NCBI RefSeq assembly: GCF_900187985.1
Contig: NZ_FZOA01000003.1
Span: 186,001 to 250,000, forward strand
Length of the DNA: 64,000 nt
Direction: 5' to 3'
DNA from: Methylobacillus rhizosphaerae
GTDB lineage: Bacteria; Pseudomonadota; Gammaproteobacteria; Burkholderiales; Methylophilaceae
Positions 41,648-57,748 of this stretch are shown piece by piece. The position numbers and the translations under genes were made by a program. Under the pieces are notes generated by a model, which was given only the letters and a program-made list of their open reading frames with translations, did not search any database and was not told where the DNA came from. Numbering within the stretch: the first letter of the stretch is position 1; each line of letters opens with the position of its first letter.

Positions 41648-43840
41648 TTAGAAGTCGTAGCGTACCCCCCCGAATACCTGGCGTTGACGGCCTGCCGCCA
41701 TACCATCTACCCGGCTTGCCAGATACTCTTTGTCACCGAGGTTATGCCCACTGACAAAGAAAGTTGCCTTGCTGCCTATTGGCCGGTAACTGACCGAGGC
41801 ATTCACCAACGTATAGGATGGAATCTGGCCGCTCATTCCACTCAAAGGATCATAATCTGCACGACCGGCACGGAAAATTACATCCTCGCTCTGGGCACTG
41901 ACATAATCCACACCAATACGGGCATTGAAGCCGACTGGATGCTCATAACCAAAGTTCAGGGATGCAACATGCTTGGGAGCATAAGCCAGGCGATCACCAC
42001 TGTGGATACCTTCTGCCGCGCTGTCCTTCTTGAATTTGGCAGTGAACAGATTGGTATAAGTACCAGAGATATAGAAATTATGGGAAGTATCATAAATAGT
42101 GCCGAAATCCACACGTCCAGCAAACTCAATACCGCTGTGTTGTGACTTGCCACCATTTACAAACCGGCCAAAACCGTTGCTGACCACAATTTCATCAAAG
42201 TCGGTATGGAACAGAGTTGTTTCAAATGCAATGCCCTTGAAATAATTGGATCGCAAACCCAGTTCCCAGTTGGTGCTCTCTTCTGGCTTGGTCTTGGAAA
42301 CCACTGCAGTATTGGCTGCACTCGCCTCAATATCGCGATCAGGCCTTGGAGGTGCAAACCCCTTATGCACACCAGCAAATAGAGTAGTATTGGCAATACC
42401 ATTCCAGGCCACACCCAGTCCCGGCAAAACCTTGCTCTGATGATTGGTCAGCTCGGATTCAGGATTATTCTGCACAGCCCCTTCCGCACGCTTCACATTG
42501 GTGGAAATACGCAAATCCTCAATCCGCAGCCCCGGTGTCAGGGACCAATCTCCCAGATAGAAAGTGTTCTGGGCATAGTAGGACTTGGCTTCAACATTGA
42601 TCGCAATATCTTCGCGATGACTGCCATTGGCCTTCGCCCACCCCAAGCTCTGTGCCAGCGGGTTGCCATCCCGGTACTGGTCGCGCTGAATATCTTCCTT
42701 GTGATAACGGAAACCAATCACCGCATCACTGGCAATGCCGAACAGGTTGTGGCTGATATCCAGGCGTGGCTCAATACCCCAATATTCATACTCACGCGGA
42801 CGCCAGCGACCACCACAGGCAGCCGAATTGGTTTCAGTCGCTACCACACCTGGACAACGGTCCATCTCCGACCTGCCACCCAGGCTACCAGGCTCATTGA
42901 TCTGCCGGAAAGAAGCCCTGTCCGACTGGGCATAATAAAACTGCGTGCTGAGTTTGGCAGCATCAGTGATCTGGAAAATATGCTGTAGCTGCAGGGACTT
43001 ACGAGTATGGTTGAAAGAATCCTGCCGACCAGTGGGTGCCTGATACTTATCTTCCGCATACTCCACGGTACCGAGCCCAGTTTCAGAAATACTGGAATTC
43101 TCTTCATACCACCCCATCTTGGCAATCAGCGTATTACGTTCATCAAGATTCAACTGACCTTTCAGGGTCAGCTCATTGATTTCGAAATCATGATTGTCAC
43201 GAATGCCATCCCCTTTACGATTGACAGCATCCAGCATCACACCACCCCAGTCTCCACCAGTGCCGATGTTGACATGACCACCGCTGAAATTATTGTTGCC
43301 GATCACAGCCATTACACTAGCTTGGAACTCCTTGGGCACAGGCTTGGTAACGAAATTGATCATGCCACCTACGGTCTGTGGGCCATACAAAGTCTGTCCT
43401 GATCCCTTCACCACTTCAATTCTGCTCACGCGATCCAAAGGCGTTGAGTAATGCGCAGAAGGATCTCCGTAGGGAGCCAGGAACAATGGAACACCATCCT
43501 CCATCAACAAGGTACGTGATGTACGACGCGGATTTAAGCCACGAATACCAATATTGGGTGCCAGTACAAATGCGTCCTCGCCAACGATATTGATACCCGG
43601 TGTTTGATTCAACGCTTCACGCACACTGAATGGTTGGCGAGATTTCAGCTCCTTCTCATCCACGACATCAAATGAACCGGGTACAGCCTCCAGCCGATCC
43701 GGCAAGATGCCCGTCACATTAACCTTATCAGCGACAACACTTTCTCCATTTTCCGTGTGCTCTTGCTGGCTTGCCTGCTCAGCTGCAAATGCCGGCATGA
43801 TCAGGATCATGGCTGCCATTCCCATTATTGGTTTTCTCAT
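41648..43840 (-). CDS. TonB-dependent outer-membrane receptor, FecA-like without STN domain
   Basis: Ligand-gated barrel for uptake of an iron chelate or similar substrate. From ATG 43840 it has about 730 residues: signal peptide (GMAAMILIMPAFAAEQ), plug (PFSVREALNQTPGINIVGED, IGIRGLNPRRTSRTLLMEDGVPLFLAPYGDPSAHY, IEVVKGSGQTLYGPQTVGGMINFVTK, each part of the plug), and a 22-strand barrel ending in the usual aromatic VRYDF. The plug is close to that of FecA-type receptors, but there is no STN domain, so it is not expected to signal. It has no adjacent transporter and ends with a strong terminator. I saw no clear Fur box upstream. Confidence 0.9.
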   Translation of the reverse strand: MRKPIMGMAAMILIMPAFAAEQASQQEHTENGESVVADKVNVTGILPDRLEAVPGSFDVVDEKELKSRQPFSVREALNQTPGINIVGEDAFVLAPNIGIRGLNPRRTSRTLLMEDGVPLFLAPYGDPSAHYSTPLDRVSRIEVVKGSGQTLYGPQTVGGMINFVTKPVPKEFQASVMAVIGNNNFSGGHVNIGTGGDWGGVMLDAVNRKGDGIRDNHDFEINELTLKGQLNLDERNTLIAKMGWYEENSSISETGLGTVEYAEDKYQAPTGRQDSFNHTRKSLQLQHIFQITDAAKLSTQFYYAQSDRASFRQINEPGSLGGRSEMDRCPGVVATETNSAACGGRWRPREYEYWGIEPRLDISHNLFGIASDAVIGFRYHKEDIQRDQYRDGNPLAQSLGWAKANGSHREDIAINVEAKSYYAQNTFYLGDWSLTPGLRIEDLRISTNVKRAEGAVQNNPESELTNHQSKVLPGLGVAWNGIANTTLFAGVHKGFAPPRPDRDIEASAANTAVVSKTKPEESTNWELGLRSNYFKGIAFETTLFHTDFDEIVVSNGFGRFVNGGKSQHSGIEFAGRVDFGTIYDTSHNFYISGTYTNLFTAKFKKDSAAEGIHSGDRLAYAPKHVASLNFGYEHPVGFNARIGVDYVSAQSEDVIFRAGRADYDPLSGMSGQIPSYTLVNASVSYRPIGSKATFFVSGHNLGDKEYLASRVDGMAAGRQRQVFGGVRYDF

Positions 43841-44167
43841 CACTTGTGCGTTCCCTCTAAATGTCATTAATGCCGGAACCACTTCCTGCTCCGGCGCTTC
43901 TCCATAAACATTGTCAATATTATTTAATTGTAAAAATATGTAATCAACAACAAGCGAGAGTTTCCAAGGATTAACCTGATCAAAGAAGAGGAGTTATTCA
44001 CAAATAATTCTGGGAATAACTCCTAAATATGTGTTGAATATACTTCCATGTTAAATAACTTTACTCATGCCCAAAATCGGGAAAAAGTCATAAATGCAGG
44101 CATAGCAAGCGATTTCAGGAAAAAATCACTTCCTCAAGATGAATCATGTCTGCACAATGCCCGCACA
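43841..44167. other. Divergent intergenic region with a 10-bp inverted repeat
   Basis: Between the receptor gene and the first sensor kinase. GGAGTTATTC (43990-43999) and GAATAACTCC (44014-44023) form a perfect 10-bp inverted repeat with a 14-bp spacer. The frame of the kinase is open from 44048, so part of this stretch may be coding if an upstream start is used. I could place no clear promoter. Confidence 0.45.
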
Positions 44168-45505
44168 ATGAGCATCAATTCACCCAACACGGCAGTCACT
44201 CCAATCTGGTCGCGTATGTCCCAGTCCTCGCGCGACATCCTCATTGCCTTGTTTGTCATTACCAGCGTTTTTCTTCTTTCTGCAACACTGGATCTTTCAG
44301 AAAAATTTATTGAATGGGCACTGACACACGAGTCCTTGCAGCTGGATGAATTCCCCCTGGTACTATTTTCCGCAGCTCTGGTTTCCATCTGGTTCTCACG
44401 GCGCCGCATGCGTGAAGTTGTCTCGGAGGCAAATCGCAGAATCGCGGCAGAACATCTGTCCATCAAAAATCAACATATGTTCAAGACCTTGTTTGATCAA
44501 GGGTTGTGTGGCAATTTCGTCGCCGATCTGAAAGGTCATATCCTGCTATGCAATCAGGCTTTCAGCACAATGTGTGGCAGAAATGAGGCGACTCTCAATC
44601 TCAAGGACGCCATTGGCAACCCGTGGAATAACTTATGTAAGAAGTTGCTCACTGCAGAGAAAGTGGATATTGCTGAACTGGTTGTCAAAAGACCCGATGG
44701 CGCACCATGGATTGTCGCTGCCAGATTGACACGCTCTATCAGCGGCCAAGAGCCTCTGGACAATACTATTCACGGATTCTTCATCGATATCACTGAACAG
44801 TATCTGGCTGAAAGGGAACTGGCTGCGCTGTTCAAGGAAAACCAGGCGCTGGCCCGCCACGCAATGCAGGTTCAAGAAGAAGAACGACGCCATATTGCTC
44901 GGGAGATTCATGATGAAATGGGGCAATACCTGACCGCAATACGGCTGGAACTCGCCACGCCACCCAAGAATGATATTCAACTGATGACAGCATTTGCACA
45001 ACGCATCAGCTCACACGTAGAACATATCCAGCAGGCTGTCCGTGGCCTGATCCACCAGCTACGTCCTACGGCACTTGACTCACATGGCTTGGTGGAAGCC
45101 GTACAACAATTGGTTGCAGAATGGAAGAAACAGCATACAGAGATCGACTGCCAGCTGTCATTGGATCAAAGCTGCCATCAGCTACCCGAGAAAACCAATA
45201 TTGTTGCCTACCGCATTGTGCAGGAATCACTGACCAATATTGCACGCCATGCACATGCCCGGAATGTATCCATCAAGCTGATGCGCACGCGCGGCATTCT
45301 GACAGATACACTGACCATTGAAATACGAGATGATGGTGTCGGTTTCAACCCACACACTCCAAGAACTGGCTTTGGCTTATCTGGAATGCGTGAGCGTGTG
45401 GAATCTGAGGGTGGTGTTTTCAACCTGCATAGCCAAGGCAAAGGTGTCGTGATTTCAGCCAGCATTCCGCTTAATACCGCATTACAAGCAATTCAGGAAA
45501 GTTAA
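44168..45505 (+). CDS. NarX-type sensor histidine kinase with PAS domain
   Basis: Membrane sensor kinase of the HisKA_3 group. From ATG 44168 it has about 445 residues: two membrane spans around a short periplasmic loop (DILIALFVITSVFLLSATL and LVLFSAALVSIWF), a PAS domain (MFKTLFDQGLCGNFVADLKGHILLCNQAF in part), the phospho-acceptor motif RRHIAREIHDEMGQYL, and a GHKL ATPase (YRIVQESLTNIARHAHA, IRDDGVGF, GLSGMRERVESEGG). No ribosome-binding site settles the start; the frame opens at 44048. The response regulator follows 1 bp later. The signal is not known. Confidence 0.88.
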   Translation: MSINSPNTAVTPIWSRMSQSSRDILIALFVITSVFLLSATLDLSEKFIEWALTHESLQLDEFPLVLFSAALVSIWFSRRRMREVVSEANRRIAAEHLSIKNQHMFKTLFDQGLCGNFVADLKGHILLCNQAFSTMCGRNEATLNLKDAIGNPWNNLCKKLLTAEKVDIAELVVKRPDGAPWIVAARLTRSISGQEPLDNTIHGFFIDITEQYLAERELAALFKENQALARHAMQVQEEERRHIAREIHDEMGQYLTAIRLELATPPKNDIQLMTAFAQRISSHVEHIQQAVRGLIHQLRPTALDSHGLVEAVQQLVAEWKKQHTEIDCQLSLDQSCHQLPEKTNIVAYRIVQESLTNIARHAHARNVSIKLMRTRGILTDTLTIEIRDDGVGFNPHTPRTGFGLSGMRERVESEGGVFNLHSQGKGVVISASIPLNTALQAIQES

Positions 45506-45506
45506 T

Positions 45507-46145
45507 ATGGCTCAGAAAATATTATTGGCAGATGACCACGCCGTAGTCCGCAGCGGCTTGCGTACGCTATTGGAAAATGTGGGTTACCAGATCATCGCCG
45601 AGGCAGAAAATGGAGAACGCGCCTGCATTCTGTGGCAGGAGCATCATCCAGACCTTGGCATCCTTGATCTTGATATGCCAGGCATAGGAGGGCTGGAAAG
45701 CCTGAACCGCATTATCGCCCGGGATGCCAATGCCCGCCTGATCATTTTCAGTATGCATAATGACAATATTTATGCCGCTCGTGCCATGCAGGCTGGCGCC
45801 AAAGGTTATGTGGTCAAGACTGATGCACCTGAAGTATTACTCGAAGCAGTGAAACAAGTCCTGCGTGGTGGCCGTTATATTGGTCACGAGCTGGCACAGC
45901 ACCTGGCCATGGACAGGTTCTCCCCGACAGAGAACCCACTGGAAAAACTTTCGCCTCGCGAATTTGAAGTATTCCGCCGTATTGCCGAAGGTGTTTCACT
46001 TTCAGGCATTGCCGAGCAATTGCACATCGGCTATAAAACCGCCGCCAATATCCAAACCCAGGTGAGACAGAAACTCAACGTCCAGACTACAGGGCAGCTG
46101 GTACACCTTGCCATACGCTTTGGCATCACCCAGCAACGCGATTGA
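45507..46145 (+). CDS. NarL/FixJ-type response regulator
   Basis: Transcription regulator, 212 residues. The receiver domain has the acidic pair in LADDHAVVRSGLR, phospho-acceptor Asp in LGILDLDMPGIGGLE, and Lys in KGYVVKTDA. The LuxR-type helix-turn-helix is LSPREFEVFRRIAEGVSLSG...LHIGYKTAANIQTQVRQKL. It is paired with the upstream kinase (1-bp gap). Its C-terminal HTH is like that of the regulator at 46383, which suggests the two systems came from one duplication. Confidence 0.92.
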   Translation: MAQKILLADDHAVVRSGLRTLLENVGYQIIAEAENGERACILWQEHHPDLGILDLDMPGIGGLESLNRIIARDANARLIIFSMHNDNIYAARAMQAGAKGYVVKTDAPEVLLEAVKQVLRGGRYIGHELAQHLAMDRFSPTENPLEKLSPREFEVFRRIAEGVSLSGIAEQLHIGYKTAANIQTQVRQKLNVQTTGQLVHLAIRFGITQQRD

Positions 46146-46382: not shown

Positions 46383-47024
46383 CTACCCCTCGATCACACC
46401 ATGCTTGATTGCCAAGCGCACCAGTTCAATCGGGCTGGTAATGCCCAATTTCTGTTTCAGCAAAGTCTGGTAGTTTGCGACTGTTTTCTGGCTGATTTTC
46501 AAGATGGTGGAAATTTCTTCGATACCTTTACCGGCTGCCAATAAGCGGAAAACCTCAAACTCCCGGGCAGAAAGCAATCGGGTAGGATCATCACTGCCAG
46601 AAAGGGTCTGTAATGCAATTTGCTGGGCAATTCCCGGACTTAAATATCCTTTGCCCTGCGCCACTTCGCGAACAGCTTGCACCAAGTCATCTGCAGCACC
46701 TGACTTGGCAACATATGCCCTGGCTCCCGCACCCAGCGCTTGAGAGGCAAATGCTGCATTTTCATGCATTGAGAAAATAATGACGCGCGCCTGTGGATAG
46801 CGGGCAATGATCCTGCGCAGAGCCTCCAACCCACCCATGCCCGGCATGGACATATCCATCACCACGACATCAGGTAGATATTCTCCATAGTGTTGATATG
46901 CCTGCTCCCCGCTGCCAGCCTCCGCAGTCACTTCCACACCGTCGTTCTGCTCCAGCAAGCGTCGCAAACCGGAACGAACCACCTCATGGTCATCTACGAG
47001 CATGACATTAATCTTGGTACTCAT
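46383..47024 (-). CDS. NarL-type response regulator (MoxX-like position)
   Basis: Transcription regulator of 213 residues. Receiver domain: VDDHEVVRSGLRRLLEQ, phospho-acceptor Asp in VVMDMSMPGMGGLE, Lys in ARAYVAKSGA. LuxR-type HTH: LLSAREFEVFRLLAAGKGIEEI, ISQKTVANYQTLLKQKLGI. Its start overlaps the kinase stop by 4 bp. By comparison with MoxXY of Paracoccus it could control a methylotrophy gene, but no target is visible in this window. Confidence 0.92.
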   Translation of the reverse strand: MSTKINVMLVDDHEVVRSGLRRLLEQNDGVEVTAEAGSGEQAYQHYGEYLPDVVVMDMSMPGMGGLEALRRIIARYPQARVIIFSMHENAAFASQALGAGARAYVAKSGAADDLVQAVREVAQGKGYLSPGIAQQIALQTLSGSDDPTRLLSAREFEVFRLLAAGKGIEEISTILKISQKTVANYQTLLKQKLGITSPIELVRLAIKHGVIEG

Positions 47025-48379
47025 TGTGTTTCCTTTGATGATTCTTGTAGTGGTAACTCGACACGAATGCGCGCACCTGCTGCCAGCGCACTTTCCAGCG
47101 AGAATCGCCCTCCCAGCCCTTCTACACGCTCACGCATTCCAGCCAGTCCGAACCCTGACGGAAGTTGTGTCATATTGAACCCACGCCCGTCATCAGTCAC
47201 CTCGATACTGAGCATGGCATCCACAATATAAATACGGATATCCACCTGGTTTGCATGTGCATGCCGGGTAATATTGGTCAAGCATTCCTGCACAATACGA
47301 TAGACAGCCACTGCCATGGTTTCATCCTGCACATGATCAAGGTTGTCAGGTATGTCCAGATTGACCTGCACTTTCCGGTTACGCTGTTTCCAGGTATTCA
47401 CCAGGTCCGTCACTGCCGTTGCCAGGCCAAACGCATCCAACCCGGATGGACGCAAACGTTGCAACATATCATGCACAATATCCATCATCTGCCGCGCCAC
47501 AACGCTGATGGCCTGCGCACTGTCCTTGGCACCTTCAATATCTTTGGCATTAATGATGGCAGAAGCATCAACATGCACAGCTGTCAGGTACTGTCCTATT
47601 TCATCATGCAGGTCTCGTGCCAGATTCTTGCGCTCATCCTCCTGCAAGCGAATCATCTGCTGGGTCAGCTTATGATTGTTATGGATACTTTTCTCCAGCG
47701 TTTCCGCCATCGCATTGAACTTCCGGCTAATCCCTGTGAGCTCTGGCAGTTCAAACTCAGGCAACCTGGCCTTGAGGTTTCCCTGCTCCAGCTCATTCAA
47801 CGCAGTCATCACACTATCCACAGGCCGCATGGCACGGCCAACAGCCCAGTACACCAATGCATTCACGGCAACAAAGAAAATAGCAACCAACATCAGTAAA
47901 CTCAGAATATCGCCCAGCACCTCCTGGATTTCATAGCTAGGATCTGGCGTCACCACGAGCTCCCCTATCATACGACCATTGGCAAATATCTTGCGACGGA
48001 TTTCCGGCATGGCGGGTGAAAGCAAATCCATGGCCTGTATCAGCCAGGATGAAGACAGCTGATGCTCCGCTTCGATATTACTGTCCCGCAACCGGCCCTG
48101 TGCATCGAAAAATTCAATGCGTAAATGACGTACATTACCCAGGCTGTGCAAGCGGAATATGGAATTGGAGTTCTGGCCTTCTGCTTCGCGCATCCAGCCA
48201 AAATCCGAGGTGTAGTGCAGGATTTCGGCATCCAGCAAATGCATCGCCAATGTTGCCGTTGACTGCACCTCGGCACGCACATCATCACGTGCGTTATGAA
48301 CCATCAATACAGCCGCCAGCAACAATACTGAAGCCAGCAGCAAAGTAATGATCAAATTTAGACGTAGCTTGAGGTTCAT
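47021..48379 (-). CDS. MoxY/NarX-type sensor histidine kinase with LapD_MoxY_N-like domain
   Basis: Inner-membrane sensor kinase. From ATG 48379 it has about 452 residues: N-terminal span (LIITLLLASVLLLAAVLMV), a periplasmic domain of the LapD/MoxY type (LAMHLLDAEILHYTS, LRIEFFDAQGRLRDSN, GELVVTPDPSYEI), second span (LLMLVAIFFVAVNALVYWAV), HAMP, the phospho-acceptor EDERKNLARDLHDEIGQYL and the ATPase (YRIVQECLTNITRHAHA, VTDDGRGFNM, GLAGMRERVEGLGG). The frame opens from TTG 48421, but ATG 48379 fits the signal-anchor better. Paired with the regulator downstream (4-bp overlap). Confidence 0.9.
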   Translation of the reverse strand: MNLKLRLNLIITLLLASVLLLAAVLMVHNARDDVRAEVQSTATLAMHLLDAEILHYTSDFGWMREAEGQNSNSIFRLHSLGNVRHLRIEFFDAQGRLRDSNIEAEHQLSSSWLIQAMDLLSPAMPEIRRKIFANGRMIGELVVTPDPSYEIQEVLGDILSLLMLVAIFFVAVNALVYWAVGRAMRPVDSVMTALNELEQGNLKARLPEFELPELTGISRKFNAMAETLEKSIHNNHKLTQQMIRLQEDERKNLARDLHDEIGQYLTAVHVDASAIINAKDIEGAKDSAQAISVVARQMMDIVHDMLQRLRPSGLDAFGLATAVTDLVNTWKQRNRKVQVNLDIPDNLDHVQDETMAVAVYRIVQECLTNITRHAHANQVDIRIYIVDAMLSIEVTDDGRGFNMTQLPSGFGLAGMRERVEGLGGRFSLESALAAGARIRVELPLQESSKETQ

Positions 48380-48550
48380 CGGTGAACTGGATTGAGCTGT
48401 CCGTTGCGAGTGATTGCGCAATTTAAATCAGTTCTCCGAAAACAGAAACGGGAGAAAGTCCCGACACTTGTATTGATGCCACAAAATATTGATGAACATT
48501 TCCTCTCTCTCTAATGAGACATTCCTACAGCATGAACCGGTCTGCTCTCT

Positions 48551-48643
48551 TAGAATGAGCACCAGAAGTTAAGAGTTCACTCCATGTTCTTTGCAACTTC
48601 TCCATAGTGTTATGCCAGCGTGAGATTCACGCTGGCTTTTTTT
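48551..48643 (+). ncRNA. Candidate small RNA ending in a strong terminator
   Basis: A gene-free plus-strand stretch between the divergent kinase gene and suhB. A hairpin forms from AGAAGTTAAGA (48564-48574) with TCTT and AACTTCT (48588-48601), leaving a 13-nt loop and a 3-nt bulge. It is followed at 12 nt by a 10-bp terminator stem GCCAGCGTGA/TCACGCTGGC (48614-48636) and seven T on the plus strand only. No plus-strand gene ends here, so the terminator must belong to a non-coding transcript or a very short ORF. The 5' end is a guess based on a TAGAAT sequence at 48551. Confidence 0.5.
48614..48643 (+). terminator. Rho-independent terminator without an upstream plus-strand gene
   Basis: A 10-bp perfect stem with a 3-nt loop and seven T. 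The opposite strand has no T run, so it does not serve suhB. Confidence 0.9.
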
Positions 48644-48689
48644 ACGCATGGAACAAACAATAAAAACCGGTGGCAGGGATTGCCTGAAT

Positions 48690-49499
48690 TTATCGAGTTT
48701 TCTGTGTTTTCAATTCATCAGTCAGGTGGGGAGACAATACCTGCAGCATCTGGGCAAAAACCTTGGGGTTCGCTGCCACAATGTTACCGCTCTCGAGAAA
48801 GCCTTCATTGCCTTGAAAATCCCCCACCAGGCCGCCTGCCTCATGCACCAGCAAGGATCCTGCAGCAATATCCCAGGTGGACAAGCCGATTTCCCAGAAA
48901 CCATCGAACCAACCTGCAGCCACATAAGCCAGGTCCAGCGCGGCAGAGCCGGGACGACGCAAACCAGCAGATTTTTTCACCATATCCTTGAACATGCCCA
49001 GATAGGTTTCAAAATGTGTGAAATCCCGGAATGGAAAACCTGTCCCGATCAATGAATCCTGCAATTTTGGACGGTTTGTGACACGAATACGCTTGTTATT
49101 CAGGAAGGCACCGCCACCACGAATGGCAGTGAACAGGTCATTGCGGCTGGGATCATAAATCACGGCACGCGTAATCTGGCCTTTTTGCTTCAATGCGATG
49201 GATACGGAGTATTGCTGGAAACCATGCAGAAAATTGGTCGTACCATCCAGAGGATCAATAATCCAGACATTCTCCGCATCCGCGTCCTGCTTACCACTTT
49301 CTTCGCCAAAGAACCCATGGTCAGGATATGCATCCTTGAGGATGGCAATAATCGCCTCCTCTGCAGCATGATCGATTTCACTGACGAAATCATTGTAATC
49401 CTTGCTGCGTACGGTCAACGCACCAATATCCATAGAGCCACGATTAATAATATCGCCAGCACGGCGAGCGGCCTTGACCGCATTATTCAATAAATGCAT
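48690..49499 (-). CDS. suhB: Inositol-1-monophosphatase family protein SuhB
   Basis: Mg-dependent phosphatase; in E. coli SuhB also takes part in rRNA antitermination. The 269 residues carry GFFGEESG, the metal site [15 protein letters not shown] and the C-terminal [18 protein letters not shown]. It is divergent from trmJ, a common neighbour. Confidence 0.93.
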
Positions 49500-49624: not shown

Positions 49625-50380
49625 ATGACCTCCACACCAAACCTGTTACAACATGTACGCATCGTCCTCTGCCAAACCAGCCATCCTGGCAATATAGGGG
49701 CCGCAGCACGCGCCATGAAGACAATGGGCTTATCCCAACTCGTCCTGGTCAATCCAAAATCCTTCCCCCACGCGGATGCCATCGCCATGGCATCCGGCGC
49801 TTCAGATATCCTGGATAACGCCCGGGTATGCAGCAGCCTGACAGAAGCGCTAAGCGACACCACACTTGCCATTGGCATGAGTGCACGCCGGCGTGAACTT
49901 TCTCATGAACTCGTTTCCGCACATACCAGCGTGCAGCGCGCCATCGCGACCGCACACCAGGCAGCTGTCGCATTTGTATTTGGCACAGAGATGAGCGGCC
50001 TGTCCAATGCCGAGCTTGATCATTGCCAGCTACTTGCCATGATTCCGGCCAATCCGGAATACTCCTCCTTGAACCTTGCTGCTGCAGTACAAATCATCAG
50101 CTACGAACTGCGTATGGCAGCCCTGGACAATCCACAACCTGCCCACTCAGAAACCACGCAACCATTAGCTACCAATGAAGATGTTGAGCGACTTTACTCC
50201 CACCTGGAACAAACACTGATTGAAATCGGCTTCCTCAACCCGGATCAGCCCAAACGCTTGATGCAGCGCCTACGGCGTCTGTATGGGCGCACCGCCCTGG
50301 AGCAAGAGGAAGTCAATATCCTGCGCGGCATCCTGAGTGCCACACAATCTCCAAGACCACCTGAATCTACCAACTCCTGA
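49625..50380 (+). CDS. trmJ: tRNA (cytidine/uridine-2'-O-)-methyltransferase TrmJ
   Basis: SPOUT methyltransferase acting on tRNA position 32. The 251 residues show VRIVLCQTSHPGNIGAAARAMKTMGLSQLVLVNPK, FVFGTEMSGLSNAELDHCQ, IPANPEYSSLNLAAAVQIISYELR (the knot motifs) and a C-terminal helical extension (HLEQTLIEIGFLNPDQPKRLMQRLRRLYGR in part). It leads the cysE-isc series. Confidence 0.94.
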   Translation: MTSTPNLLQHVRIVLCQTSHPGNIGAAARAMKTMGLSQLVLVNPKSFPHADAIAMASGASDILDNARVCSSLTEALSDTTLAIGMSARRRELSHELVSAHTSVQRAIATAHQAAVAFVFGTEMSGLSNAELDHCQLLAMIPANPEYSSLNLAAAVQIISYELRMAALDNPQPAHSETTQPLATNEDVERLYSHLEQTLIEIGFLNPDQPKRLMQRLRRLYGRTALEQEEVNILRGILSATQSPRPPESTNS

Positions 50381-51271: not shown

Positions 51272-51745
51272 ATGCGATTAACCACAAAAGGTCGTTTTGC
51301 AGTGACCGCAATGCTGGATTTAGCCCTCAACGAAGAGGAAAAACCAGTCACCCTTGCTGGCATCAGCGAGCGCCAAGGCATCTCCCTTTCCTATCTCGAG
51401 CAGCTTTTCAGCCGCTTGCGTCGCAATGGGCTGGTAAAGAGCGTGCGTGGCCCAGGTGGTGGCTATCGTTTGGCAAAAGTCCAGACTGATATTTCCGTAT
51501 CCGACATTATCACTGCAGTAGACGAGCTGATAGATGCGACACAATGTGGCGGCAAGGAGAACTGTCATGAGGGCAAGCCCTGCATGACACATGACCTGTG
51601 GTCCAGCCTCAACACCAAAATCCTGGAGTATCTCTCCGGTGTAGCACTAGCCGACCTGGTCGCTTCACAACGCGAAGGCAAGGAAATCCGCTTTACTGTA
51701 CGTCGTGAAAGCCAGCGTCCCCAGCCCGTGCAGGTTGCAGCCTGA
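51272..51745 (+). CDS. iscR: Fe-S cluster regulator IscR
   Basis: Rrf2-family repressor that binds a [2Fe-2S] cluster and sets isc expression. The 157 residues begin with the winged helix-turn-helix ([47 protein letters not shown]). The cluster ligands Cys92, Cys98 and Cys104 are in E. coli positions ([13 protein letters not shown]), with His107. The 100 bp upstream should hold its promoter; I did not find a clear type 1 IscR site. Confidence 0.96.
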
Positions 51746-51757
51746 CAGGATTGCATC

Positions 51758-52906
51758 ATGAACCGGGCGGTCTATTTCGACAACAATGGCACTACAGCAC
51801 TAAACCCAAAAGTGTTGCAGGCGATGTTGCCATACCTGTCGCAACAGCAAGGCAATGCCACCAGCCGTCATATTTTCGGCCGTGCTGCCCGCAATGCTGT
51901 AGACCAGGCTCGTGAACAAGTAGCTGACGCCGTCGGGGCACATCCATCGCAGGTGATTTTCACCGGTGGCGGCACCGAGGCGGATAACCTGGCAATTACC
52001 GGCGTGGCAAACGCATTAGGCTCCGGCAAGATTGCCATCAGCAATATAGAACACCCTGCAGTATCACGCCCTGCTCTTGCATTGAAATGGCAGGGCTGGG
52101 CTGTCGAGCAGATCGCGACCAACCAATACGGTCAGGTTGAGAAAAACACGCTGGAAACCGTATTACAGAAACAGGTCGACATGGTATCCATCATGTTGGC
52201 CAACAATGAAACCGGCGTTATTCAGGATATTGCCGCACTGGGTGAGATCGCCCGGCAACACAAGGTATACATGCATACCGATGCAGTGCAGGCCCTGGGG
52301 AAAATACCCGTTGATTTTGCGGACCTGAATGTCCATGCCATGACACTGTCATCGCACAAGATCAATGGCCCACAAGGTGCTGGAGCACTGATTCTGGACA
52401 AGCGCATTGATATTCGACCGGTGCTGTACGGTGGTGGTCAGGAAAAAGGCCTACGCAGCGGCAGTGAAAATATTGCCGCCATTGTGGGGTTTGGCGCGGC
52501 CTGCCAACTGATCGCAGCAGAACAACCCGCTCGCCATGCAGCACTGTTGGGATTGCGTCAGCGCCTTGAGCAAGGTCTCAGCACATTAGGTGCCGTGATT
52601 TTTGCCAGTGATGCGGAGCGCCTGCCCAATACCAGTTTTTTTGCCTTCGATGGCATTGAGGGTGAAACTCTGGTCATGGCACTCGACAGGCAAGGATTTG
52701 CAGTCGCCAGTGGCTCAGCCTGCTCCAGCGACAGCACTGAACCCAGCCACGTATTGCTGGCCATGGGCGTACAGCCGGACCTGGCCCGCGGTGCCATCCG
52801 GGTGAGCCTGGGTAATGACAATGACATACATGAGGTCGATGCTTTCCTGCAGGCGCTGGAAATCGAGCTCTCAAGATTGAGAAAATTAACTGCAGTTGCA
52901 ATTTAG
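51758..52906 (+). CDS. Second cysteine desulfurase (NifS/IscS-like)
   Basis: PLP enzyme that takes sulfur from cysteine. The 382 residues share the fold and motifs of IscS but are clearly distinct: MNRAVYFDNNGTTALNP, TGGGTEADNLAI, PLP-lysine Lys201 in LSSHKINGPQGAGAL, GGGQEKGLRSGSENI, and active Cys322 in ASGSACSSDSTEPS. It lies between iscR and iscS (12-bp gap on each side). Having two desulfurase genes in one isc operon is unusual; it may serve another sulfur acceptor (tRNA thiolation, cofactors) or oxidative conditions. Confidence 0.93.
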   Translation: MNRAVYFDNNGTTALNPKVLQAMLPYLSQQQGNATSRHIFGRAARNAVDQAREQVADAVGAHPSQVIFTGGGTEADNLAITGVANALGSGKIAISNIEHPAVSRPALALKWQGWAVEQIATNQYGQVEKNTLETVLQKQVDMVSIMLANNETGVIQDIAALGEIARQHKVYMHTDAVQALGKIPVDFADLNVHAMTLSSHKINGPQGAGALILDKRIDIRPVLYGGGQEKGLRSGSENIAAIVGFGAACQLIAAEQPARHAALLGLRQRLEQGLSTLGAVIFASDAERLPNTSFFAFDGIEGETLVMALDRQGFAVASGSACSSDSTEPSHVLLAMGVQPDLARGAIRVSLGNDNDIHEVDAFLQALEIELSRLRKLTAVAI

Positions 52907-52918
52907 GAAAACGGAAAT

Positions 52919-54136
52919 ATGACAGTACGTACGCCGATTTATCTGGATTATTCAGCCACTACCCCGATTGATCCACGAGTGGCGGAAAAAATGATCCCTT
53001 ACCTTACCGAGCATTTTGGTAATCCGGCATCGCGCAGCCACAGTTTTGGCTGGACTGCTGAAAAAGCCGTGGAGAATGCACGTGAGGAAGTGGCCAAGCT
53101 GGTGAACGCTGATCCGCGTGAAATCGTCTGGACATCAGGTGCCACGGAATCTAATAACCTGGCCATCAAGGGAGCTGCAAATTTCTACAGCCCCAACAAG
53201 GGCAAACATATTGTGACTGTTCAGACAGAACACAAGGCAGTGATTGATACCGTACGCGAACTGGAACGCCTGGGTTACGAAGCCACCTATCTGGTTCCTG
53301 AGCCTGATGGCCTGATTGATCTCGAAAAATTCAAGGCAGCGCTGCGTCCAGACACTGTCTTGGCCTCTGTCATGCTGGTCAACAATGAAATCGGAGTGAT
53401 TCAGGATATCGAGGCGCTGGGTAACATCTGCCGCGACCAAGGTATTATTTTCCACGTTGACGCCGCACAGGCCACCGGCAAGGTGCATATCGATCTGCAG
53501 AAACTGCCTGTCGACCTGATGAGTTTTTCTGCCCATAAAACCTATGGCCCCAAAGGCATAGGCGCGCTGTATGTACGCCGCAAGCCACGCGTACGCATTG
53601 AGGCACAAATGCATGGTGGCGGTCATGAACGCGGCATGCGTTCCGGCACGCTGGCAACCCACCAGATTGTGGGGATGGGAGAAGCCTTCCGCATCGCGCG
53701 TGAGGAAATGGACATTGAAAACCCACGTATCCTGGCATTGCGCAACCGCCTGCTCAATGGCTTGCAGGATATCGATGAGGTATATGTAAATGGCGACCTG
53801 GAACACCGCGTTGCACACAATCTGAATATCAGTTTCAACTTTGTAGAAGGTGAATCCCTGATCATGGCGGTGAAGGATATTGCGGTATCCAGTGGATCGG
53901 CGTGCACATCTGCAAGCCTGGAGCCGTCCTATGTCCTGCGCGCACTGGGCCGCTCTGATGAGCTTGCGCACAGCTCCATCCGCTTCTCTATCGGGCGTTT
54001 CACCACTGAAGAGGATATTGACTACGCGATAGAGCTCATGAAGAGCAAGATTGGTAAATTGCGTGAATTATCCCCACTCTGGGAAATGCATCTGGATGGA
54101 GTGGACTTGAATACTGTGGCATGGGCTGCACATTAA
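52919..54136 (+). CDS. iscS: Cysteine desulfurase IscS
   Basis: Main housekeeping desulfurase that gives sulfur to IscU. The 405 residues align with E. coli IscS by one residue: start [35 protein letters not shown], Lys207 in [29 protein letters not shown], and active Cys329 in [15 protein letters not shown]. The C-terminal end ([22 protein letters not shown] in part) is the IscU-binding type. Confidence 0.97.
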
Positions 54137-54196
54137 CAGTAGTTGGGTACCAATTGCGACTGCGGCTCTTGGTGCCAATTTTGAGGAGTAATAAAC

Positions 54197-54598
54197 ATGG
54201 CTTATTCAGACAAAGTACTCGATCACTATGAAAATCCACGTAACGTGGGCTCTCTGGACAAAAACGATCCGTCAGTAGGTACCGGCATGGTCGGCGCTCC
54301 GGCTTGCGGCGACGTGATGAAGCTACAGATCAAGGTCAATGAAGAGGGCATCATCGAAGATGCAAAATTCAAGACCTATGGTTGTGGTTCGGCGATTGCC
54401 TCCAGCTCACTGGTCACGGAACTGATCAAAGGTAAATCCCTTGATCAGGCAATGGAAATCAAGAATTCTGACATTGCAGAAGAGCTGGCATTGCCACCGG
54501 TCAAGATTCACTGCTCCGTACTGGCAGAGGACGCCATTCGTGCCGCCATTACTGACTTACGGACTAAGCAGGGTATCAAGGACGAACAAGTAGCTTAA
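54197..54598 (+). CDS. iscU: Fe-S scaffold protein IscU
   Basis: Scaffold on which [2Fe-2S] and [4Fe-4S] clusters are built. The 133 residues have the start MAYSDKVLDHYENPRNVGS, ligands Cys37 (GAPACGDV), Cys63 (YGCGSAIAS) and Cys106 (KIHCSVLAE), with Asp39, and the HscA-binding LPPVK motif at residues 99-103. Confidence 0.98.
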   Translation: MAYSDKVLDHYENPRNVGSLDKNDPSVGTGMVGAPACGDVMKLQIKVNEEGIIEDAKFKTYGCGSAIASSSLVTELIKGKSLDQAMEIKNSDIAEELALPPVKIHCSVLAEDAIRAAITDLRTKQGIKDEQVA

Positions 54599-54607
54599 AG
54601 GACAGGC

Positions 54608-54931
54608 ATGGCAATCACGTTGACTGAAACTGCAGCAAACCGCGTGCGGAAGTTTCTTGCCAACCGAGGCAAAGGCATAGGCCTGCGCCTTGGCGTCAAG
54701 ACTACCGGCTGCTCGGGCATGGCTTACACACTGGAATTTGTTGATGATCTCAACACCGAGGATATGGTGTTTGAAAGCCATGATGTCAAAGTGATCGTGG
54801 ATCCCAAGAGCCTGGTTTACATTGATGGTACGGAATTGGACTTTACCAAGGAAGGTCTCAATGAAGGGTTCAAGTTCAACAACCCGAATGTCAAGGATGA
54901 ATGCGGATGCGGTGAAAGCTTCACCGTCTAG
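54608..54931 (+). CDS. iscA: Fe-S assembly protein IscA
   Basis: A-type carrier that passes clusters or iron to target proteins. The 107 residues have the three conserved cysteines, Cys35 (TTGCSGMAY), Cys99 and Cys101 (DECGCGESF). It lies 9 bp after iscU. Confidence 0.97.
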
Positions 54932-54991
54932 CTTGTCCGTATCAAACCTGGGCAGTCGGCACCCGGCTGCCTCTCCTGCATATGAACCCTT

Positions 54992-55525
54992 ATGTCCAAT
55001 CTGCACAAGAACCATTTTGAACTACTCGGCCTGACAGCACAATTTGCGCTGGATACACAATTACTGGATCAGCACTACCGTCAACTGCAGGCTGAAGTTC
55101 ACCCGGACCGCTTTGCTGCGGCATCGTCCACTGAACGTATGCAATCCATGCAATGGGCAACCCAGGTCAATGAGGCATACCAGACACTCAAGCAGCCCAC
55201 TGCACGAGCCCGCTATATCCTCGCACTCAAGGGTGTAGACACTGAGGAAGAAAATAATACGTCCATGCCGGCAGATTTCCTCATGCTGCAAATGGAATGG
55301 CGTGAAGCAGTGGAAGAAGCATACGACGCCCGCGACCTTGCGGCACTCGACAAGTTGTTAGGTGATATGCGGCAGGAATCCCAAGATTTGCAGGACATGC
55401 TGGCAGCTACATTGGACCAGCAGCAAGCATGGCAGGAAGCGGCTGGCATGGTGCGAAAATTAAGCTTCATTGACAAGATCCGCGCAGATGTTGCGCACAA
55501 GATAAGCAAACTGGAAGACGAATAA
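54992..55525 (+). CDS. hscB: Co-chaperone HscB
   Basis: J-domain protein that brings IscU to HscA. The 177 residues hold an N-terminal J domain with the HPD motif (EVHPDRFA, NEAYQTLKQPTARARYIL) and a C-terminal three-helix domain that binds IscU (ADFLMLQMEWREAVEEA). The 60-bp gap after iscA has no gene. Confidence 0.95.
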   Translation: MSNLHKNHFELLGLTAQFALDTQLLDQHYRQLQAEVHPDRFAAASSTERMQSMQWATQVNEAYQTLKQPTARARYILALKGVDTEEENNTSMPADFLMLQMEWREAVEEAYDARDLAALDKLLGDMRQESQDLQDMLAATLDQQQAWQEAAGMVRKLSFIDKIRADVAHKISKLEDE

Positions 55526-55534
55526 ACTCAAGTC

Positions 55535-57403
55535 ATGGCGTTATTACAGATATCAGAACCGGGTATGAGCAGTGCACCGCACCAGCACAAGCTGGCAGTG
55601 GGCATAGACCTGGGCACGACCAACTCACTGGTGGCTACCGTACGTAGCGGCCTGGCGGCTGTGCTACTCGATGACACCGGGCATGCCCTACTTCCATCCA
55701 TCGTGCATTATGCTGCTGATGGTCAGATAGATGTGGGCCACAGTGCGCAACTACAACAAACCCAGGACCCGCAGAATACCCTGCTATCAGTGAAGCGTCT
55801 CCTGGGACGTGGCCTGTTAGACATTGGCAACATTGAGCACCTGCCGTATCACTTTGTTGAGACCCCAGGCATGGTGCAAGTCAAGACGCGAGCCGGGATC
55901 AAAAGCCCGGTCGAAGTGTCCGCAGAAATTCTCAAGGCGCTGAAGTTCCGTGCAGAACAAGCACTGGGAGGAGAACTGACCGGTGCTGTCATTACCGTCC
56001 CCGCCTATTTTGATGATGCACAACGGCAGGCCACAAAAGATGCGGCACGCCTTGCCGGCATCAATGTACTACGCCTGCTAAATGAACCTACAGCAGCAGC
56101 CGTGGCCTATGGCCTGGAGAACGCCGCAGAAGGCATTTATGTCATCTACGATCTGGGAGGCGGGACTTTTGATGTTTCAATCCTGCGATTGGCGAAAGGT
56201 ATTTTTGAAGTACTTGCCACCAACGGCGACTCAGCGCTGGGTGGCGATGACTTCGACAGGCGCATTTTCTGCTGGATACTGGAACAAGCCGGATTACAGC
56301 CTCTTGAGCCTGCAGACACCCGCCTGCTGACCACCAAGGCACGCGAAGCAAAGGAATGGCTGACCGATCATGCCAGCGCCAATATCACGGCTGTGTTGAG
56401 CCAGGGTGAAGTGATTGACCTGCACCTGAGCCAGTCTGATTTTCATGCCATGTGCCAACAGCTCATCAACAAAACCCTCCTTCCCATTCGCAAGGCATTA
56501 CGCGATGCAGAGCTGAATGTTGAAGAAGTCCAGGGCATTGTCCTGGTCGGTGGCGCCACACGCATGCCTCAAGTGCGCCATGCAGTCAGCAGTTTTTTTG
56601 GCCGGGAACCCCTGACCAACCTGGATCCTGACCAGGTGGTGGCGCTAGGTGCCGCCATACAAGCCAACGTCCTTGCCGGCAACCGCAATGATAATGACCT
56701 GCTGCTGCTAGATGTCATTCCGCTCTCCCTTGGCCTAGAAACCATGGGCGGGCTGGTGGAAAGAATCATTCCGCGCAATGCCACACTCCCTATCGCACGC
56801 GCACAGGACTTCACTACATTCAAGGATGGCCAGACTGCCATGAGCATTCACGTCCTGCAGGGTGAGCGTGAGCTGGTCGCAGATTGTCGCTCACTGGGGC
56901 GTTTTGAGTTGCGCGGCATTCCTCCCATGGCTGCCGGTGCCGCACGTATTCGCGTCACCTTCCAGGTGGATGCCGATGGCCTGCTTTCCGTCTCGGCCCA
57001 GGAGCAAACCAGTGGCGCCCATGCGGATATCGTGATCAAACCGTCATACGGATTGAGTGAAGAGCAGATCGTCGACATGCTGCAATCCTCATTCAGCGCT
57101 GCAGAAACCGATAAGCGTGCGCGCATGCTGCAAGAGGCGCGCGTCGATGCGGCCCGTCTGCTGGAGGCAATAGAGGCAGCCCTGAGACAGGATGGAGAAG
57201 CGTTACTGGACGCCAATGAAAAAGCGGCCATCACCACTCACATGGAAAACCTGCGCCAATTGACGCAGCAAGAAGACAGCGATGCCATCAACAAGGCCGT
57301 TGAAACACTCAATCACGCGACAGAACATTTTGCTGCGCGCCGTATGGATGCTTCTGTCAGAAAAGCACTGGCTGGGCAGGCATTGAATACTTTGGAACTT
57401 TAA
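55535..57403 (+). CDS. hscA: Fe-S assembly chaperone HscA
   Basis: Hsp70-type ATPase specialised for cluster release from IscU. The 622 residues start with [20 protein letters not shown], very close to the E. coli N-terminus, so ATG 55535 is kept. ATPase motifs are [48 protein letters not shown] and [12 protein letters not shown]. The substrate-binding domain follows. Confidence 0.97.
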
Positions 57404-57406
57404 ATC

Positions 57407-57748
57407 ATGGCAAAAATTACTGTGCTGCCCCATCCGGAATACTGTCCCGAAGGCAAAACCTTCGAGGCCCAGCCCGAACGCTCCATCTGCCATAACCTGC
57501 ATAAACAGGATATTGACATCGACAGCGCCTGTGGTGGCGTTTGTGCCTGCACCACGTGTCACATCTACGTGCAGAAAGGCTACAACTCCCTGTCAGAACC
57601 AGATGAAAATGAAGAAGACATGCTGGATCAGGCCTGGGGACTCAAACCCAATTCCCGCTTATCCTGTCAGGCCATCATTGGTGATGAGGACGTAGTGGTT
57701 GAAATCCCCATTTACTCCCTTAACCTCGCCAAAGAGCCTCCACACTAG
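57407..57748 (+). CDS. fdx: Isc-type [2Fe-2S] ferredoxin
   Basis: Electron donor for cluster assembly. The 113 residues have the ligands Cys42, Cys48, Cys51 and Cys87 plus the semi-conserved Cys46 (ACGGVCACTTCH, RLSCQAI), in the E. coli Fdx positions. It begins 3 bp after hscA. No iscX follows, which differs from the E. coli operon. Confidence 0.97.
   Translation: MAKITVLPHPEYCPEGKTFEAQPERSICHNLHKQDIDIDSACGGVCACTTCHIYVQKGYNSLSEPDENEEDMLDQAWGLKPNSRLSCQAIIGDEDVVVEIPIYSLNLAKEPPH

Follow-up and report, generated by a model that had tools for sequence, protein, structure and literature searches.

We analysed a window of 64,000 nucleotides from Methylobacillus rhizosphaerae, in which a plus-strand gene for a predicted RNA of ~80 nt (48564-48643) has a sensor-kinase gene on one side and a phosphatase gene on the other. 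These two neighbours are on the minus strand, so the earlier note was right that no plus-strand gene stands just upstream. We saw no gene in the interval from the kinase HK2 to the phosphatase (48380-48690), and on the plus strand the annotated layout has its next gene at 49625, behind an opposing gene. The start given earlier for the candidate, 48551, marks where the -10 box begins and not where the predicted RNA does. The features to which we refer are these:

46383..47024, minus strand: response regulator RR2 (receiver and LuxR-type domain), the proposed regulator
47021..48379, minus strand: sensor kinase HK2 (HAMP, HisKA_3, HATPase_c), divergent from the sRNA
48448..48464, no strand: palindrome ACGGGAGAAAGTCCCGA, a candidate response-regulator site that recurs at kinase and dehydrogenase loci
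48490..48503, no strand: conserved box TGATGAACATTTCC, a possible activator site
48516..48529, no strand: conserved box GAGACATTCCTACA upstream of the -10 box, a possible activator site
48551..48556, plus strand: -10 promoter box TAGAAT (TAGAATG is identical in 6/6 genus genomes)
48564..48643, plus strand: predicted sRNA of ~80 nt, its 5′ end placed from the -10 box and the hairpin foot
48564..48601, plus strand: 5′ hairpin, AGAAGUU/AACUUCU and then AGAG/CUUU (from the fold and pair counts)
48580..48584, plus strand: CUCCA in the hairpin loop, kept in 8/8 aligned sequences
48597..48609, plus strand: linker CUUCUCCAUAGUG, the proposed pairing region, with the core CUCCAUAG kept in 8/8 aligned sequences
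48614..48643, plus strand: intrinsic terminator and seven T (from the terminator scan)
48690..49499, minus strand: inositol-monophosphatase-family gene, flanking the sRNA on the other side from HK2

Two kinase/regulator pairs of the same type lie face to face here, HK1-RR1 (plus strand, 44048-46145) and RR2-HK2 (minus strand, 46383-48379), and beside the kinases is a gene for a TonB-dependent receptor (41648-43882), whose counterpart in genome G051 (L203, 64% identical) adjoins HK2. Near the start of the receptor gene stands TATGGAGAAG, complementary to the sRNA over 10 nt, and the receptor frames of G010 and G030 begin MEK; that this receptor has a role in lanthanide uptake is a guess. Inside the coding sequence of RR2 (L300), CACTATGGAGAA at 46880-46892 matches the complement of the sRNA linker exactly over 12 nt. 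Farther along, 51272-57748 hold what we take to be an isc-like iron-sulfur cluster, in which two cysteine-desulfurase-like genes follow one another (51758 and 52919).

The two structural elements described earlier were both recovered, namely the plus-strand terminator (48614-48636; a 10-bp stem with 7 G-C pairs, a loop of 3 and then seven T) and, directly before it, the long hairpin (AGAAGUU..AACUUCU, 48564-48601). The 84 nt from 48560 to 48643 fold at -27.8 kcal/mol (z -4.9) and the 80-nt RNA (48564-48643) at -27.3 (z -4.9), with 0/200 shuffles as good in either case, and the U tail of seven after the terminator stem is of the kind looked for in Hfq-dependent sRNAs. A simple terminator scan was, taken alone, at chance level (3 found vs. 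2.0 expected), and it is because the element is conserved that we regard the sRNA gene as more than chance. At its threshold, a sigma-70 scan returned no promoter-like site on the plus strand of the sRNA, and no -35 consensus was seen upstream of the -10 box (TAGAAT, 48551-48556).

Several known kinds of element were considered and rejected. When the window was scanned with Rfam 15, 0 families reached their gathering score, and a relaxed threshold gave four matches of 13.5-19.4 bits, all far below gathering (best 19.4 vs. 72); we therefore rejected a housekeeping RNA or Rfam family, and the earlier judgement by eye that the RNA is not 6S, tmRNA, RNase P or SRP RNA is supported for the window. 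RsmY/RsmZ and CsrB are sRNAs under a LuxR-type response regulator whose GGA motifs bind CsrA; the present RNA differs from them in that 48564-48643 contain no GGA, and a CsrA-sequestering sRNA of the RsmY/CsrB type, with repeated GGA in its loops, was rejected. A cis attenuator or riboswitch was rejected for want of a downstream gene on the same strand, the next being the one at 49625, and a terminator of the phosphatase gene was rejected because the minus strand has no T run after the stem.

Every Methylobacillus genome examined (6/6) has the sRNA, as a single strong match. In the genus the hairpin varies at two positions, both in G062 and jointly keeping a pair (A-U to U-G); the remaining changes affect the RNA ends, the terminator loop and the linker, into which 11 nt are inserted in G062. 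Upstream, TAGAATG is invariant (6/6), unlike the five bases that follow it and a good part of the ~20 that precede it; the boxes TGATGAACATTTCC and GAGACATTCCTACA and the palindrome ACGGGAGAAAGTCCCGA (in the letters of the window) are largely conserved across the genus, the palindrome being imperfect in G043. The six genus sequences taken alone gave no significant covariation (one pair; 92/500 shuffles as high).

Relatives were sought with the covariance model R1, which matched in 20/187 family genomes (E<=0.1). Outside the genus it scored 37 bits in G016 and 30 bits in G021, and the RNAs of these two retain the loop motif CUCCA and the linker motif CUCCAUAGU on different stems. Three other R1 matches, in G008 (33.0 bits), at a second place in G062 (31.6) and in G055 (28.7), were set aside because they are without the CUCC motifs. 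A second model, R2, which includes the G021 and G016 sequences, gave 64 and 61 bits for these two and at most 28.6 for the other non-genus genomes among the 187, and G008 was absent from its matches. Across 399 genomes of the order, nothing outside Methylobacillus rose above 31.8 bits, and the two best non-genus matches did not show the double motif. Applied to loci outside the genus, R1 had no match at E<=1 over 37 phosphatase-gene loci and found G021 only among 24 HK2 loci. As far as these searches reach, the RNA family does not extend beyond Methylobacillus and near genera.

The lack of base-pair covariation had been named beforehand as a finding that would speak against the candidate, and covariation was found. 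We aligned eight sequences (six Methylobacillus, G016 and G021) by fitting them to the model structure, because MAFFT misaligned the distant RNAs, and in this alignment, which favours the structure by its making, 11/20 pairs changed on both sides and 97.8% of cells pair; 0/500 shuffles reached either value, and slid structures gave at most 2 such pairs. Presence in 6/6 genus genomes, the invariant -10 box and relatives with covarying stems thus support the candidate sRNA proposed in the earlier note, and we infer that the RNA is transcribed.

The note had also suggested a tie to the adjacent kinase, and linkage in other genera speaks for it. Homologues of HK2 occur in 132/187 family genomes (E<=1e-60), and among the 66 HK2 upstream regions that we examined (720 nt each), terminator-bearing RNAs were present in 12: those of the six genus genomes, G001, G021, G051, G069, G116 and G148. 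The G021 RNA, too, is divergent from the HK2 homologue (61-63% identical), and the gene on its other side differs. G001 has the gene order HK2 - phosphatase - TrmJ - CysE, as in the window, and at the same place a two-hairpin RNA whose loop contains CUCUCUCCA and whose terminator is preceded by CUCCCUCCA; R2 does not match this RNA (within L201), and for that reason we call it a positional analogue. In four genomes of genus g7 (G051, G069, G116 and G148), a terminator-ended RNA in the opposite orientation lies upstream of HK2, with CUCC in three of the four and CACC in G148, and GGGATAAAATCCC ends 13 nt before a TATAAC, CATAAC or TATTAC box. The linkage is not universal: in G016, the RNA lies between homologues of the window's two regulator genes, beside a methyltransferase-like gene, and does not adjoin HK2 (the second kinase gene of this genome and a PQQ dehydrogenase gene from the MxaF clade point away from each other), and in G083 and G178 the RNA lies away from HK2.

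What might such an RNA pair with? The hairpin loop had been put forward as the informative pairing region; in this role we replace it with the linker CUUCUCCAUAGUG (48597-48609). Target prediction with the loop complement, the check suggested at that stage, yielded no shared target that we recognised among matches that were not individually annotated. XoxF-type genes have ribosome-binding sites similar to CACTATGGAGAAG, the reverse complement of the linker; we noticed this target after the fact, during inspection of the palindrome. At the main xoxF site of the genus, CACTATGGAGATTTATAAAAATG, the match is 11 nt exact in 6/6 genomes, these orthologous sites not being independent, and in G062 the frame behind the site is broken. 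Further xoxF paralogues have 10-13 nt of complementarity. In all, 16/29 Methylobacillus PQQ-dehydrogenase loci carry an exact complement of 10-13 nt at the ribosome-binding site (L240 and L257 are one gene, counted at 11 nt), and the 12 of these 16 dehydrogenases that were translated in full are all XoxF-type, with D-x-D (PHDEWDYD or PHDEWDFD), the form present in a solved lanthanide enzyme; calcium enzymes have D-x-A at this place. Six MxaF-type loci among the 29 have 8 nt (GGAGAAGT), and discrimination between mxaF and xoxF may therefore be incomplete. At the remaining seven loci the match is 4-8 nt long and never runs through the linker, and four of these loci belong to a separate PHDLYDYDG clade; the D-x-D dehydrogenase L325/L416 of the window's own genome has no match. 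Note that three Methylobacillus dehydrogenase fragments stand outside the 29: one in G062 (C27) has the same xoxF site and then a broken frame, another in G062 (C17) is without the site, and that of G030 (C1:73973) has the site only before a 176-residue gene ~2 kb upstream. The main xoxF of G062 (L418) is apparently split in two frames, by mutation or assembly error.

We compared these matches with a background drawn from the window and twenty unselected 20-kb stretches of its own genome, where 181/434 frames have a Shine-Dalgarno-like motif; loci picked by pattern were kept out of this background. Only 3/181 of these starts reach 10 nt and 0/181 reach 11, so that the Methylobacillus xoxF matches of 11-13 nt exceed the background maximum of 10 (181 starts). 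Duplex energy separates the sites more weakly than match length does (2 and 8 of the 181 background starts are at least as strong as the two own-genome xoxF sites, and 34/181 as mxaF). In G010, the 13-mer at <=2 mismatches occurs 56 times, including the sRNA gene itself, and 4 of these places are at starts of dehydrogenase genes, of which this genome has 6. Starts of secreted-protein genes (L294, L289, L306 and L290) also have 12-14 nt of exact sRNA complementarity, and L294 (own genome) and L289 (G010) look orthologous.

The letters of the site differ between genera. The main xoxF site of g7 is AACTTTGGAGATTAA, which the G069 and G051 RNAs match with 12 nt (TTTGGAGATTAA), the G083 RNA with 10 nt (ACTTTGGAGA) and the G148 RNA with 10 nt, one mismatch and 6 more; in G083 and G178 the RNA is at another locus, has the linker UCUCCAAAGUG and reaches only 26 bits with R2. 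We compared RNAs with sites in a 7 x 7 matrix without G051 (its 12 nt are counted separately). The RNAs of Methylobacillus, G016 and G021 match CTATGGAG sites with 8-12 nt, and the g7 RNAs match CTTTGGAG sites with 10-12 nt and the others with 5-8, while the Methylobacillus and G021 RNAs match g7 sites with 7 nt. Three RNAs are less clear: that of G016 has 9 nt with both site types and does not discriminate, that of G021 has 8 nt with its own xoxF site, and that of G001, with only 7 nt at its own main xoxF site, does not fit. We read this as sRNA and target apparently evolving together, with G001, G016 and G021 as exceptions.

The palindrome recurs at both kinase and dehydrogenase loci. In its strict form, GGGA-N4..6-TCCC, it was found in 37/66 upstream regions of homologous kinases, and GGGA-N5-TCCC precedes 12/50 dehydrogenase loci (600 nt upstream of the matched domain; related loci in this count are not independent), vs. 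0/50 for each of seven control motifs with other spacings or rearranged half-sites. Genome-wide, at <=2 mismatches, it is not enriched (54 vs. 63 for the control in the own genome, and below the control in all six genomes). Eight sites, mostly AT-centred and picked by eye from the listed places, were fetched from G010 and G030; they lie near HK2, HK1 and the TonB receptor and upstream of PQQ dehydrogenase and PepSY genes, except for one G010 site (L244) with none of those neighbours. One gene so preceded is MxaF (1134 bits to 1g72, a methanol dehydrogenase heavy subunit), followed by a MoxJ-like gene, and another is closest to 6oc5, a solved lanthanide-dependent XoxF. The PepSY gene encodes 175 residues with two PepSY stretches; M. 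flagellatus has a periplasmic protein of 19 kDa, LanP, which binds lanthanides and contains two PepSY domains (PMC11845868, PMC12482762), and by its likeness to what these sources describe the PepSY gene product may be LanP. The window's palindrome is closer to the kinase start than to the predicted RNA 5′ end, from which ~100 bp separate it, and in G083 and G178 a TCGGGA-N5-TCCCAT palindrome precedes the RNA; by eye, the sRNA candidates there (L250 and L251) come after small secreted-protein genes and before a YVTN-like protein gene.

Taking these sequence comparisons together, we consider it probable that the RNA is a trans-acting sRNA tied to HK2/RR2 whose linker would block translation of XoxF-type mRNAs, as a post-transcriptional arm of the lanthanide switch. 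RR2, the linked response regulator, would control the sRNA (as is most directly suggested in g7 and least in the window); the open linker CUUCUCCAUAGUG would pair with the Shine-Dalgarno region of XoxF-type methanol dehydrogenase mRNAs; pairing over GGAGA would prevent ribosome binding and lower XoxF; and the signal may be the lanthanide state. If HK2 acts like the kinase MxaY, the sRNA would further repress XoxF, at the level of translation, in the absence of lanthanides, and the opposite sign of regulation is possible. For the family as a whole, we give about equal weight to and against a broader proposition, that Methylophilaceae possess an RNA arm in which a lanthanide-responsive two-component system drives a XoxF-silencing sRNA, with strongly diverged or unrelated sRNAs in shifted places and orientations having kept or regained complementarity to a drifting site.

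The strongest rival, which we hold to be unlikely, is that this is a genuine kinase-linked anti-Shine-Dalgarno sRNA whose main targets are other mRNAs, xoxF being minor or coincidental. Secreted proteins of ~160 and ~97 residues, the PepSY protein and the TonB receptor beside the kinases are the candidates, and two secreted-protein gene starts in the own genome do match with 12 nt (L294) and 14 nt (L306), scores that are selected because both were found by pattern search, with the PepSY gene at 9 nt and the TonB receptor at 10 nt. The xoxF match, however, recurs in paralogues, in 6/6 genus genomes and, with altered letters, in g7. It is less probable still, and rather doubtful in our view, that a real sRNA pairs with xoxF and is not controlled by HK2/RR2, their closeness being accidental. 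The position of the window palindrome, nearer the kinase start than the sRNA, would agree with this, as would the RNAs of G016, G083 and G178 that do not adjoin the kinase; yet RNAs with terminators upstream of HK2 in 12/66 regions argue against accident, and so does the palindrome of the same kind that precedes the RNA in G083 and G178. A 7-codon frame, MFFATSP (48584-48607, within the RNA), ends CCA TAG in the window, as does its counterpart at the same place in G021, MLLITAP, so a tiny reading frame or a cis-acting leader or attenuator might be imagined in place of a trans-acting RNA, but the G016 RNA has no ATG there and the nearest annotated plus-strand gene downstream begins at 49625, behind the opposing gene, and we regard this reading as very improbable. 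A stray terminator or DNA-level repeat with no RNA function, for which the chance-level terminator scan might speak, is scarcely credible given the conservation and covariation.

The choice between methanol dehydrogenases has so far been described via kinases, regulators and transcripts, and a review states of the MxaY/MxaB-type switch of PedH/PedE, in the part available to us, that the exact mechanism remains unknown (PMC11845868). A conserved sRNA beside the kinase, with a seed matching xoxF ribosome-binding sites, would offer a concrete mechanism that is testable in cultivable Methylobacillus species, and copies of the kinase-side palindrome stand before mxaF, xoxF and a PepSY gene similar to that of lanthanide-binding LanP. 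In Methylomicrobium buryatense without lanthanum, the kinase MxaY increases mxaF transcripts and decreases those of xoxF (PMC5018670). The likeness to our proposal is that a histidine kinase is tied to the control of mxaF and xoxF in opposite directions; the difference is that the MxaY/MxaB switch is described at the transcript level, the words 'small RNA' being absent from the text of that source as available to us (PMC5018670).

A literature search, mostly at the level of abstracts, found no sRNA for Methylobacillus, Methylophilaceae, xoxF or methanol dehydrogenase. As far as the accessible parts of the sources go, a methanotroph transcript map reports EcpR1 and alpha-r45 (PMC12403871), and the Neisseria sibling sRNAs (PMC5362039) and rhizobial NfeR1 (PMC10746234) are associated with the subjects of anti-Shine-Dalgarno sRNAs and two-component systems, and both concern metabolic control; the latter two were compared by Rfam only, with no match. 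Closest in mode are the LhrC sRNAs of Listeria, which in the available part of their description are LisRK-dependent and present in five copies (PMC4132741). Like our candidate, they are linked to a two-component system and have a CU-rich motif both in a loop and in the unpaired stretch that joins two stem-loops, the linker being predicted to cover a Shine-Dalgarno site (PMC4132741). In the sRNA described here, the CU-rich motif is in loop and linker in 8/8 aligned sequences. The two are likened by mode and not by sequence, as LhrC has five copies, other targets and another host, and we rejected membership of the LhrC family proper, with its several copies per genome, given the one strong match in each genus genome. 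The kind is thus known from LhrC (PMC4132741), a two-component-linked sRNA covering Shine-Dalgarno sites through a CU-rich loop and linker, and the RNA family, the host group and the target are new as far as we have searched.
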